NCBI RefSeq assembly: GCF_902788255.1
Contig: NZ_CADAJR010000019.1
Coordinates: 1-45,798 of the forward strand
DNA from: an uncultured Methanobrevibacter sp.
Lineage (GTDB): Archaea; Methanobacteriota; Methanobacteria; Methanobacteriales; Methanobacteriaceae
DNA length: 45,798 nucleotides
Direction: 5' to 3'
This document shows positions 5,939 through 9,818 of the stretch, in pieces (position 1 is the stretch's first letter; each line of letters starts with the position of its first letter). Both the position numbers and the translations under genes were made by a program. The notes under the pieces were generated by a model, which saw only the letters and a program-made list of their open reading frames with translations, had not been told where the DNA came from and ran no database searches.

Positions 5939-6349
5939 TCAGTTATTTACATTAGAATAATTATTACTTAACTGAGAAGTTATATTTTCATTAAAGTCAA
6001 TACTATCAACTTCTTTATCATAAATTACCTGACTAGTATTATTTAATCCTGTTGTCATTTCCCGGGTAACATTTTCAAAATGAGGTCCATCATCATTACC
6101 ATCATCAAAACTTAATGACACTCCAATTCCAGCACCTATTACAAACGCTGCCAATGCAATAATCATGATTAAAACAACAAAACCACTAGTTTTTCTTTTT
6201 TTCTTAGCTCTTCTTGGATTTTGAGAGACAGGCATAGCTGGACGAGCATTAAAGTTATTTTTTCTTCTCCTCCTTACCTTTCTATTGGAGGCCTTATTAC
6301 GACCATTTCCTGATCTTAAAACTCTCTTATTGTCGTTCTTTCTAGCCAT
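5939..6349 (-). CDS. Small membrane protein with a basic cytoplasmic tail
   Basis: A 136-residue protein of unknown family. Residues 1-55 are extremely rich in lysine, arginine and asparagine, with clusters such as K-V-R-R-R-R-K and R-R-A-K-K-K-R-K. A single membrane helix follows at about 56-80, then an acidic, asparagine-rich outer segment of about 55 residues with several N-x-S/T sites. By charge, the basic end should stay in the cytoplasm, where it could bind nucleic acid or membrane lipids. The gene follows the GGDD/cyclase-like protein after 19 bases and precedes argJ, so it is probably part of the NYN-cyclase transcript. The cytoplasmic RNA-binding idea is inference. Confidence 0.65.
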   Translation of the reverse strand: MARKNDNKRVLRSGNGRNKASNRKVRRRRKNNFNARPAMPVSQNPRRAKKKRKTSGFVVLIMIIALAAFVIGAGIGVSLSFDDGNDDGPHFENVTREMTTGLNNTSQVIYDKEVDSIDFNENITSQLSNNYSNVNN

Positions 6350-6368: not shown

Positions 6369-7571
6369 TTAAGCAAAAAATGCATAGCCTAATGCTATTA
6401 TAACACCTATAAAACTGAATGCACCTAATCCTAAAATGGACAGCATATATGCAAATATAAATACGAATGCAAATACTCCAATTAACTTAGGCTTTTCATT
6501 TTCCACCAGGTTAATCAATGTCCTGGTGAATTCAGATGGAATATTATAAGCATATAATCCATTTGCCAATTCAAAAACAACTAAAGATAATGGAGAAGTC
6601 GCTTCCAAATCATCAACCAATTGTGCTCTTTCACCAGCTTCACGTCTGCTTCTTCCAATTCCTGCTCTGATTTTTGCACCGTTATCCAAAGCAAACCATG
6701 CTGCATCAAGTCCTGCACGAATAGCCAAATCCTTTGATGGGAATCTTGCAATAAAGTCATCCCCACCTTCACGGTATCCTTCAAGTTCACCGTCACATTC
6801 GGTTTCAATGAAATTCTTGATTCCTGTCATCAACTCAACAAGTTGGTTTCTACCGTTTTTGTTGATGAATTTGGTTGAGTCAATCAAATCGATGAAGAGA
6901 TAATTTTCCAAATCCACTGGCCTTGATTCCTTAAGAAGGAAAGGTTCATCGAACACCAATGCATACTCTCCACCTAATTTAGTGAAGGCAATTCCAGGAA
7001 AACTTCCAACACTTTGAGTATAGTGAATAGCACGTTCAATTGAAGCTGCACCAGTCATTCCTACAGCAGATATAACCTGAATTCCTTCAGATAATCCGAT
7101 TCCAATCAACTCAATAGCAACACGAATTGCATCGTTTTTACTCAGCATTCTTGCAACCAGTTCTGTTGCTGTTTTTTCCACAATCTCTCCTTTTTCGTTT
7201 TGAATAATTTTAACGAAAATATCAATTAAACGAGAAGGATGTGGAAGTTCAATGTAGAAATAACGGTCACTTCCCATGATGATGTTACTAACCAATGCAT
7301 ATTCTTCAATCTTATTTTCTGCAGGTTTCAGTTCATGAAAAGTATAATCCTTTGGCAGGTTTTCAGCCCCTACATCACGAACAAGATTTTGCAAAATTGT
7401 ATCTGAAGTAATTTCTGCTTTTTCAAGTTCAAACAGGATTGTTTGAGTATAATTGAACAATTCTACATACTCAGTTTCCAAAGAATTTGTTGGAAAAAAT
7501 TTTGTTCCAACCGCAATAGGATTAAGTTTGGTTGTAAGCTTGATAAAAGACTTAGTTAATGAATTAGCCAT
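6369..7571 (-). CDS. Membrane-anchored GGDD / class III nucleotide cyclase-like protein
   Basis: A 400-residue protein with three parts: an N-terminal region of unknown fold (1-220), a palm-like domain (about 221-325) and two membrane helices at the very C-terminus (about 363-380 and 383-399). The middle domain carries F-I-D-L-I-D-S-T-K-F (226-235), matching the first metal-binding segment of class III cyclases, and E-G-G-D-D-F (268-273), matching the second metal Asp and the GGDD motif of Cas10/GGDEF-type palms. K-I-R-A-G-I-G (300-306) resembles the strand after it, also seen in archaeal GTP cyclohydrolase III. Both metal-binding positions are intact, so nucleotide chemistry is plausible. 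It overlaps the NYN ribonuclease gene by eight bases, with GGAGGGGA before its ATG. Substrate and product unknown. Confidence 0.7.
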   Translation of the reverse strand: MANSLTKSFIKLTTKLNPIAVGTKFFPTNSLETEYVELFNYTQTILFELEKAEITSDTILQNLVRDVGAENLPKDYTFHELKPAENKIEEYALVSNIIMGSDRYFYIELPHPSRLIDIFVKIIQNEKGEIVEKTATELVARMLSKNDAIRVAIELIGIGLSEGIQVISAVGMTGAASIERAIHYTQSVGSFPGIAFTKLGGEYALVFDEPFLLKESRPVDLENYLFIDLIDSTKFINKNGRNQLVELMTGIKNFIETECDGELEGYREGGDDFIARFPSKDLAIRAGLDAAWFALDNGAKIRAGIGRSRREAGERAQLVDDLEATSPLSLVVFELANGLYAYNIPSEFTRTLINLVENEKPKLIGVFAFVFIFAYMLSILGLGAFSFIGVIIALGYAFFA

Positions 7572-8589
7572 CTAAGTCCCCTCCTTTTTCCAATTCTATT
7601 TCAAATTGTCCCGGTCTTTCTAAAATCATATCCGGCTTTACAGACACGAACGGGAACTTCCAAGATCCGAGTCTTCCGGCTATAGTGCTTGCAATATTTC
7701 TTGAATTTCTTTTAATGAAAACTTCATCATGCTCGCTTACACGTACTAAAATGTTATATGGAGCAGTTTCGGTCACTTCATCTGCAAGCAGAATATTCAA
7801 TTCAAAAGTGCCAGGTTTTGTAAATAAATCATTTCTTACTGCAATTAAAGGCTTTTTCTCCAAACCTAATCTGTCTGCAACTGTAACTGAAATGTTACCT
7901 GCATTTTTTACAGCAAGCTTATAATCTTTAGGATGCACCAATACAAAAATCACATATGGAGCTGCAATTTCAACATCATCAACCATTTCTACGATTTTAT
8001 TGAACATTGGAATTTTCGCAAAAATGTTCTCCAGTTTGGATTCCGCATTGGTTTCATTATCAATACGAATAATAGCCTGTTTGGCAATATTCAATGGAGA
8101 AATCTCTAAACCTTCCTTACCTGTGTAGATTTCCCATTTTTTAAAGTTTAATTCTTTAATGATTTCATCACAAATGTGTTGAAGAATATTTTTATCCTTT
8201 TTAGGTTTTTTCGGTTTTCCGAATGTTAGTCTTCCATTGTCAATAATGAATGGAATTCTCATTGAAGCAATATTCCTAAATTCAGCAGCATAATCTCTGA
8301 ATTTATCATTTGATAAAATTTTTGCTTTTTCACGAGTTGCAATATCCAATATAAAATGATCGGCATCATTTCCTGCCGGAACTTCCTCTACATTATCACT
8401 GTCCAGCAATCTAGCAAATTTTTCTTTATCATCAATATCATGACGTAGTGATGCATCAGCTATAATTACAAATTCATCTTCACTTTCCTCTAATGCTTTA
8501 ACAGCAGCAAGAATGTTGGACATTTGAGGTTGTCCATTTTCGTTTTTAACATGATACGCCACATTAGAAGCATCTACAACTACTTTCAT
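7564..8589 (-). CDS. Zc3h12a-type NYN domain ribonuclease
   Basis: A 341-residue protein whose first 125 residues match the Zc3h12a-like branch of the NYN/PIN ribonuclease fold. V-V-V-D-A-S-N-V (D6, N9) begins it, D45 follows in I-I-A-D-A, N-D-A-D (74-77) and S-N-D-K-F-R-D-Y (93-100) supply the remaining acidic residues. All catalytic positions expected for this family appear present, so it is probably an active endoribonuclease. The remaining 200 residues are an unknown domain of two similar halves (V-I-F-V-L-V-H and N-I-L-V-R-V-S strands). RBS GGTGAT lies five bases before ATG. Its stop overlaps the GGDD protein start, and it has its own TATA-like promoter. Confidence 0.78.
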   Translation of the reverse strand: MKVVVDASNVAYHVKNENGQPQMSNILAAVKALEESEDEFVIIADASLRHDIDDKEKFARLLDSDNVEEVPAGNDADHFILDIATREKAKILSNDKFRDYAAEFRNIASMRIPFIIDNGRLTFGKPKKPKKDKNILQHICDEIIKELNFKKWEIYTGKEGLEISPLNIAKQAIIRIDNETNAESKLENIFAKIPMFNKIVEMVDDVEIAAPYVIFVLVHPKDYKLAVKNAGNISVTVADRLGLEKKPLIAVRNDLFTKPGTFELNILLADEVTETAPYNILVRVSEHDEVFIKRNSRNIASTIAGRLGSWKFPFVSVKPDMILERPGQFEIELEKGGDLDG

Positions 8590-8622
8590 AATATCACCTA
8601 AAAATAATAATTTAATTCAGTA

Positions 8623-8636
8623 TATTATATATATTT
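8623..8636 (-). promoter_or_regulatory. TATA-like promoter of the NYN ribonuclease operon
   Basis: The minus strand reads AAATATATATAATA here, about 34-47 bases before the NYN ATG at 8589. With normal archaeal spacing transcription would begin near 8605, leaving a short leader that includes the GGTGAT site. The position suggests that the NYN and GGDD genes can be transcribed separately from the phosphoesterase gene upstream. Confidence 0.5.
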
Positions 8637-8657
8637 CATTCAATATTTAAACTTAAT

Positions 8658-9401
8658 TTATAATTTATTTCTTGGATATTTTCCAAATAAAAACCTTTCG
8701 CCTTTTACTTCATTTAGAAAAATCTCGATTTCATCTTCAGTTATGTTATAAACATTATAGGAATTCTTATTTTTACCCCTGAGTTTTGTGGAGCATAATG
8801 AACCAGCATTTATAATCAATGTGTCATTCAGTTTCCAAATCTTTGGAACATGCTTGTGTCCGGATAAAACCAAATCGACCTCATGGGTTATCAGAGTGTC
8901 TAAAATATCGCCAGCATCATTTAAAACATTACGTTCACGGCCAGTTTGAGGAATAGGCACTACATGATGGTGCAAAGCAACAATAATAAAATTTTCATTA
9001 ATTACACACTCATCCAACTGATGTTCCAGCCACATGTGCTGAGGCCTTCCAACATGACCCCCATCGACATCAGGAGAGCTGCTGTCAATTCCGATGACTG
9101 TGAAATCACCATCCATAGTTAATTTCCAGCTTTTTTCACCAACCAACTCTTCAAAAGTCTGATATCCTAAGTTACGGGCATCATGATTTCCAGGAATGGC
9201 AAATAATGGAGCTTCAAACATTTCCAAATATCTTTTTGCCTGTTCAAACTCCTTGTAATAACCAGTATCTGTAATGTCCCCTGTCAATATTATCATGTCA
9301 GGCTGCAAATTGTTTATTTCAGCCACTGCAGCCATAAATATCTCTTCATCAAAAGAGATGTTAGAGACATGTAAATCTGAAATGTGTGCAATCAAAGTCA
9401 T
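8658..9401 (-). CDS. Calcineurin-like metallophosphoesterase, CpdA-like
   Basis: A 247-residue metallophosphoesterase with the complete metal-binding set: D-L-H (D9, H11), G-D (D42), G-N-H-D (71-74), H-H-H (144-146) and G-H-K-H (181-184). Size and motif spacing resemble the class III cyclic-nucleotide phosphodiesterases (CpdA/Icc), although this family also holds many enzymes of other specificity. It starts four bases after the NAC gene and is probably co-transcribed with it. The following NYN gene begins 68 bases later behind its own promoter. Its place next to a cyclase-like gene makes a nucleotide second-messenger substrate plausible, but that is inference. Confidence 0.82.
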   Translation of the reverse strand: MTLIAHISDLHVSNISFDEEIFMAAVAEINNLQPDMIILTGDITDTGYYKEFEQAKRYLEMFEAPLFAIPGNHDARNLGYQTFEELVGEKSWKLTMDGDFTVIGIDSSSPDVDGGHVGRPQHMWLEHQLDECVINENFIIVALHHHVVPIPQTGRERNVLNDAGDILDTLITHEVDLVLSGHKHVPKIWKLNDTLIINAGSLCSTKLRGKNKNSYNVYNITEDEIEIFLNEVKGERFLFGKYPRNKL

Positions 9402-9405
9402 GTTA

Positions 9406-9756
9406 TCATTGATTTAATTTCATTATAGCTTCTGCAAGATCTCCTTTACATTCTTCAAGTGCTTCTCTTGCCTTTTCCTGAGAAACCCCTGCACTGTTTG
9501 CTACCATTTCAACATCTTCATCAGGAATTTCAATTTCATATTCCAATTCAACCTCACGAGCCTTACCTTCAATCTGGTATGTTTCCTGGCCCATAACATT
9601 CATTAGACTTACACTAGGATTATCAATGATTAATTCTTTATCTTCAAAACGGATTATGACTTCTTGAGCACCGTGGAGTTCCTCCATTTTCATACCCATC
9701 TTTTTCATCTGTCTTTCCATCTGCTTCATTTGCTTTTTATTCATACCCGGTATCAT
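9406..9756 (-). CDS. nac: Nascent polypeptide-associated complex protein (archaeal NAC)
   Basis: A 116-residue protein with an archaeal NAC domain followed by a C-terminal UBA-like three-helix domain (about 80-116, with D-V-E-M-V-A-N-S-A-G-V-S). Archaeal NAC forms a homodimer that binds ribosomes and nascent chains. The N-terminus M-I-P-G-M-N-K-K-Q-M is typical and is rich in methionine and lysine. The ATG at 9756 has AAGGT eight bases upstream; a longer frame from a TTG at 9771 is less likely. It precedes the phosphoesterase gene by four bases. Confidence 0.92.
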   Translation of the reverse strand: MIPGMNKKQMKQMERQMKKMGMKMEELHGAQEVIIRFEDKELIIDNPSVSLMNVMGQETYQIEGKAREVELEYEIEIPDEDVEMVANSAGVSQEKAREALEECKGDLAEAIMKLNQ

Positions 9757-9818
9757 GTCTATAACCTTCAATAAATTAACTATTTATAATTATATCTTTA
9801 ATTATTATTAAAAGTAAC

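Follow-up and report, generated by a model that had tools for sequence, protein, structure and literature searches.

In a 45,798-nucleotide stretch of DNA from an uncultured Methanobrevibacter sp. (contig NZ_CADAJR010000019.1, positions 1 to 45,798; hereafter the window), a gene for an NYN ribonuclease (RNase) is followed on the reverse strand by a gene for a 400-residue cyclase-like membrane protein (Table 1). A preliminary description of this DNA had proposed that the two are made together, by way of an eight-base overlap and a strong ribosome binding site. A check of the sequence gave the same reading frames and coordinates for both genes and for those upstream, and the overlap proved exact. 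The NYN gene ends ...GGA GGG GAC TTA GAT GGC TAA, the ATG of the cyclase-like gene at position 7571 lies inside the NYN frame, and a strong Shine-Dalgarno sequence, GGAGGGG, stands 6 bases 5' of that start. A Shine-Dalgarno-like motif precedes the cyclase-like start in 103/110 distinct loci. As judged from the sequence, the overlap supports a probable translational coupling of the two genes.

AlphaFold2 yielded a confident model of the cyclase-like protein (pLDDT 84.5, pTM 0.76), in which an N-terminal α/β part (residues ~12–100) is followed by two palms and two C-terminal membrane helices. The helices are hydrophobic in both sequence and model, in agreement with the membrane anchor proposed earlier. 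Comparison of the two palm profiles showed them to be duplicates of one another (96–97% probability), with the metal aspartates D228 and D271 in the second, C-terminal palm only. D228, D271 and D272, which the preliminary description had listed as intact, are invariant in 112/112 distinct homologues. The N-terminal palm has invariant residues of its own (D102, R103, E137, K145, E179, R180, K198 and E202), and these, taken with the Asp pair of the C-terminal palm, suggest that the two palms form one composite active site, in which R180 could serve as the transition-state Arg. Searched alone against the PDB, the N-terminal palm profile gave no palm match, and its hits were mostly helical or designed repeat proteins. 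The α/β domain (window 7272–7538) is conserved across the order Methanobacteriales and received no family assignment.

Comparison of folds and profiles places this protein closest to nucleotide cyclases of class III. At E ≤ 0.001, Foldseek returned 39 matches in the PDB, of which 37/39 were class III adenylyl cyclases sharing the palm fold and two were chains of GTP cyclohydrolase III (GCH III). With the profile of the C-terminal palm, class III nucleotide cyclases made up six of the first seven PDB matches, each weak when taken alone; Rv1900c (E 0.0021) was followed by Ma1120 and PycC, with D228 and D271 in catalytic register. Structure prediction and homology search, the check suggested in the preliminary description, thus align the palm with cyclase folds and reveal two tandem palms, one degenerate, with conserved metal aspartates. 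The kinship claimed there holds for the palm fold and its two-metal site, but the protein is nearer to class III cyclases and GCH III than to Cas10, mCpol or GGDEF proteins. No member of the 400-residue family reached a Pfam or NCBIfam cut-off, and the gathering score of PF00211 (class III) was likewise not reached (best single-member E 0.11). Because the VNxAxR motif is absent, we do not file the protein as a class III cyclase. Assignment as a GGDEF diguanylate cyclase (PF00990) was rejected, as the motif is GGDD(F/L/I), there is no Pfam match and the sole match in the genome is another protein. A GGDKF-EAL (GGDEF/EAL-like) protein, represented by its 3' part, lies at a contig edge of the same assembly (G000 contig C26, L206:1-1134) and may be either archaeal or a contaminant. 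By family test, the 400-residue protein is not a canonical class III cyclase, GGDEF protein, Cas10 or GCH III.

The NYN protein scored 60.9 bits against PF11977 (cut-off 23), as did its relatives, with 20/20 alignment members matching, and its fold matched the PIN domain of ZC3H12C/Regnase (Foldseek E 2e-6). PF01936 was discarded: a search of the genome itself was empty, and PF11977 is the right family. Of the catalytic residues listed in the preliminary description, at least 107/108 distinct sequences retain D6, N9, D45, D77 and D95, whereas D75 is not conserved. These features support a ribonuclease of Regnase/PRORP type that looks active. The two halves of its C-terminal region align with each other (hhalign, 98% probability), and the fold search found no PDB match in this region with E <0.001. 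The module is the prime candidate for a receptor, partner or RNA-binding domain, and perhaps a new kind of sensor or RNA-binding domain.

Across Methanobacteriales, the cyclase-like gene is present in one copy in 147/151 genomes, and in 89/90 of the good ones. A profile search, which picked up the most distant genome (G151) as well, raised the single-copy count to 148/152. In the four remaining genomes the NYN gene is missing too, which would fit either an absent stretch of sequence or the joint loss of both genes. Gut and sewage methanogens both carry the pair, which hardly any member of the order lacks. To count neighbours we used 85 loci with at least 3 kb upstream, some genomes being counted twice. 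The NYN gene lies on the same strand, <700 bases upstream of the cyclase-like gene, in 81/85 loci; a phosphoesterase gene lies <2.5 kb and a gene for NAC <3.5 kb away in 73/85 loci each. The order NAC, phosphoesterase, NYN, cyclase-like is retained in G151 and in most of 20 representatives. Median dN/dS values of 0.041 and 0.036 for the pair genes, approximate because dS is near saturation, indicate strong purifying selection. Since the two genes keep their order throughout Methanobacteriales at a dN/dS of ~0.04, the pair is not a chance arrangement. A conserved-motif scan of the whole GTDB found 104 relatives, and the best 80 of the 104 were all Methanobacteriales or archaeal bins. Overall, the cyclase-like gene belongs to the core: it is near-universal, passed on vertically and not a defence-like island, and the NYN–cyclase pair is a stable unit and the only constant part of its neighbourhood.

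The phosphoesterase next door had been described as CpdA-like and proposed as the signal-degrading part of a three-gene module. Its metal ligands (D-x-H, GD, GNHD, H and GHxH) are complete in 74/74 sequences, and its profile best matched GpdQ (E 7e-14) and Rv0805 (E 1e-11) in the PDB. It is of Rv0805/GpdQ type, but far below the CpdA equivalog cut-off (58 bits against 225). In one complete genome (L038) it lies ~630 kb from the pair, and in another (L042) no orthologue was found while the pair is still present. We therefore rejected a strict three-gene module: the pair stands, but the phosphoesterase moves or is lost and is thus optional. Surveyed across Methanobacteriales, as the preliminary description had proposed, the three genes are neighbours at most loci but not at all of them, the phosphoesterase being common beside the pair yet dispensable. 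In genus g13 its orthologue lies on another contig (G132:C132:13468-14322 and G136:C36:12322-13167), where the open frame is longer (304 and 286 aa) and the match within it falls into two pieces, suggesting an inserted segment.

On the far side of the cyclase-like gene, 3' of it, the basic single-pass membrane protein reported earlier was found again, with 22 Lys or Arg among its first 55 residues; outside Methanobrevibacter this position gives weak matches only. argJ also lies downstream there. Between the phosphoesterase and the NYN gene is an AT-rich gap with a TATA-like run (window 8590–8657), which may hold a separate promoter for the pair.

Table 1. Features of the locus, in window coordinates, listed in the direction of transcription
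Feature	Position	Strand	Basis
Archaeal NAC alpha (TIGR00264), usual head of gene string	9406-9771	-	Family match and neighbourhood
Metallophosphoesterase related to GpdQ, Rv0805 and CpdA; optional partner	8658-9401	-	Profile and ligand conservation
NYN ribonuclease gene, 341 aa	7564-8589	-	PF11977 60.9 bits; 20/20 orthologues match; Foldseek ZC3H12C/Regnase E 2e-6
NYN catalytic domain, residues 1-133, with D6, N9, D45, D77, D95	8191-8589	-	Pfam, fold, conservation
Tandem duplication of ~65-residue beta-alpha-alpha-beta-beta module, residues 205-338 of NYN protein	7576-7977	-	hhalign, model
Shine-Dalgarno GGAGGGG for cyclase-like gene, within NYN coding end	7578-7584	-	Sequence
Overlap of NYN stop and cyclase-like start, 8 bases, ATGGCTAA	7564-7571	-	Sequence; overlap/abutment in 83/110 distinct loci
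Cyclase-like tandem-palm membrane protein, 400 aa	6369-7571	-	AlphaFold2 pLDDT 84.5; Foldseek class III adenylyl cyclases and GCH III
N-terminal palm, residues 88-215, without Asp pair	6927-7310	-	Alignment, profile comparison
C-terminal palm, residues 216-350, two-metal site	6522-6926	-	hmmsearch to Rv1900c E 0.0021, Ma1120, PycC
D228 codon, first metal Asp, aligned with FTDI of Rv1900c	6888-6890	-	Alignment
D271/D272 codons, GGDD motif; D271 aligned with GD Asp of class III cyclases	6756-6761	-	Alignment
Two C-terminal membrane helices, residues 360-399	6375-6494	-	Model and hydrophobicity
Basic single-pass membrane protein, weakly conserved; module membership uncertain	5939-6349	-	Sequence, neighbourhood

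The pairing itself is not new, as Lupo et al. (2025) listed it as 'cluster D', a Zc3h12a-like NYN ribonuclease (OG0001213) and a nucleotide cyclase (OG0001214) given without function, ranging over the pseudomurein archaea, Methanobacteriales and Methanopyrales (PMC11915815). Cluster D is almost certainly the same orthologous pair, identified not by accession but by the way its domains are annotated, its membrane prediction, its synteny and the taxa in which it occurs. In the main text of that account we found no structure, active-site, tandem-palm or phosphoesterase analysis, nor the tandem palms, invariant metal site, C-terminal duplication of the RNase, near-universal conservation and optional phosphoesterase described here. 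A literature search by MTH locus tags found nothing.

Our best reading, to which we give a probability of roughly 45%, is that a membrane nucleotide-signal enzyme controls the RNase made together with it, as a core two-gene unit of Methanobacteriales and the pseudomurein methanogens. This reading starts from gene arrangement, folds, conserved metal sites, constraint and distribution, all established by computation; for catalysis, product, receptor and RNase control we infer the following. The 400-residue protein would be a tandem-palm enzyme that is anchored in the membrane and belongs to the class III cyclase superfamily, binding two metals in its C-terminal palm through D228 and D271, while the degenerate N-terminal palm would complete a single nucleoside triphosphate (NTP) site, as in a fused catalytic/regulatory cyclase heterodimer. 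Most likely it would convert NTP to a cyclic (or other small) nucleotide. The Regnase/PRORP-like endoribonuclease would be translated together with it and most likely receive the signal, or dock, through its duplicated C-terminal module, and RNA cutting would be controlled at the membrane. In most species, the class III phosphodiesterase-like neighbour would remove the product. If this is true, a nucleotide-signal enzyme and an RNase form a core cellular pairing outside defence.

A further step, which we regard as unlikely, is a dedicated archaeal second-messenger system, in which a membrane cyclase of a new class makes a nucleotide sensed by the duplicated module of the co-translated RNase and is the source of the cyclic AMP (cAMP), or a related nucleotide, of Methanothermobacter. 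cAMP was reported in archaea decades ago, Methanothermobacter thermautotrophicus among them, and most archaea, according to the authors of PMC8646023, probably use a cyclase of unknown class (PMC8646023). No PF00211 cyclase above cut-off was found in 150 genomes of the order, which, like the reported cAMP, also counts for our best reading. In an order that by Pfam has no ordinary class III cyclase, a protein of cyclase fold that nearly all genomes encode, and whose metal site is intact, is a concrete candidate for the cAMP source.

Several observations weigh against a signal enzyme. A cyclic-nucleotide (cNMP)-binding domain (PF00027) was found in none of 31 genomes of the order, and a cAMP receptor with such a domain was therefore rejected; if a cyclic nucleotide is the product, its receptor would not be of CRP type. 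By alignment, the Asn of VNxAxR, which belongs to the class III transition state, is in neither palm. Whole-chain TM-scores are low (~0.2), the alignment behind the AlphaFold model is shallow (21 sequences from one order), the phosphoesterase is moved or missing in some lineages, and the NAC neighbour fits a housekeeping role in RNA or translation equally well. Some of these points would suit a tandem palm that acts as an NTP-binding membrane anchor or sensor without diffusible product, tethering the NYN protein and gating it by NTP level in housekeeping RNA turnover. Such a protein would resemble bacterial RNases held at the membrane and would account for the pair as the sole constant unit and for its core distribution, for the missing cNMP-binding domains and class III Asn, and for the company of NAC and, in the most distant relative, of an adjoining archaeosine tRNA-guanine transglycosylase-like gene. 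Pure anchoring needs no metal aspartates, yet two are strictly invariant, and we consider this explanation rather unlikely. The phosphoesterase could still belong to NAC or another pathway, with adjacency a matter of ancestral inertia. Its gene mostly abuts that of NAC, and its separation from the pair in L038 and the failure to find an orthologue in L042 fit such a role, which we find quite plausible if short of even odds; its place beside the pair in 73/85 loci, the most distant relative included, and within the cyclic-nucleotide phosphodiesterase branch argue for a link.

The palm order fits other enzymes too. GCH III also has a degenerate palm followed by a GGDN palm, its structure is matched with E 5e-4, and one C-terminal palm member gives a weak match to the GCH III (IIa) model, pointing to a GCH III-like or other NTP-hydrolysing enzyme with a metabolic product and the RNase as mere operon neighbour. 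We rejected GCH III itself, as PF05165 gave no match, neither the single sequence nor the profile was significant (hhalign, 2% probability) and a true GCH III is encoded elsewhere in the genome (contig C30); with the membrane anchor and close RNase linkage also against it, the metabolic explanation is improbable. In Cas10, Palm1 and Palm2 likewise form a degenerate palm and then a GGDD palm. Together with the GGDD motif and one C-terminal palm member that weakly matches the mCpol model (E 0.018), this would allow a Cas10/mCpol-like synthase whose cyclic oligonucleotides switch on the RNase as part of antiviral defence, and NYN RNases do occur in some type III CRISPR loci, but the CRISPR-associated NYN was not an effector switched by the signal (PMC11346440). 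The cyclase-like gene is moreover single-copy, near-universal and vertical and was not found in viral contigs, PADLOC was negative for both genes, and no Cas10 or mCpol chain was among the 50 fold matches listed. We thus rejected both Cas10/mCpol membership and a defence island, and hold a defence role to be very improbable.

Compared with known systems, the cyclase-like protein shares its palm fold, with both metal Asp in register, with class III cyclases (Rv1900c, Ma1120, OaPAC and AC9; PycC), and its two-palm arrangement with fused C1/C2 cyclases. In contrast to class III cyclases, it falls below the PF00211 cut-off, lacks VNxAxR and the dimerisation arm, and carries its degenerate palm first and its membrane helices at the C terminus. 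GCH III (MJ0145, 2QV6) also has tandem palms, the second with GGDN, but shows no significant sequence relation, and the protein described here adds an N-terminal domain and membrane helices. The phosphoesterase has the complete metal signature of the class III phosphodiesterases Rv0805, GpdQ and CpdA, far below the CpdA equivalog cut-off. With Regnase/ZC3H12, KHNYN and PRORP, the NYN protein has its catalytic domain and acidic residues in common, whereas its duplicated C-terminal module, without known match, and its coupling to a cyclase-like gene set it apart.
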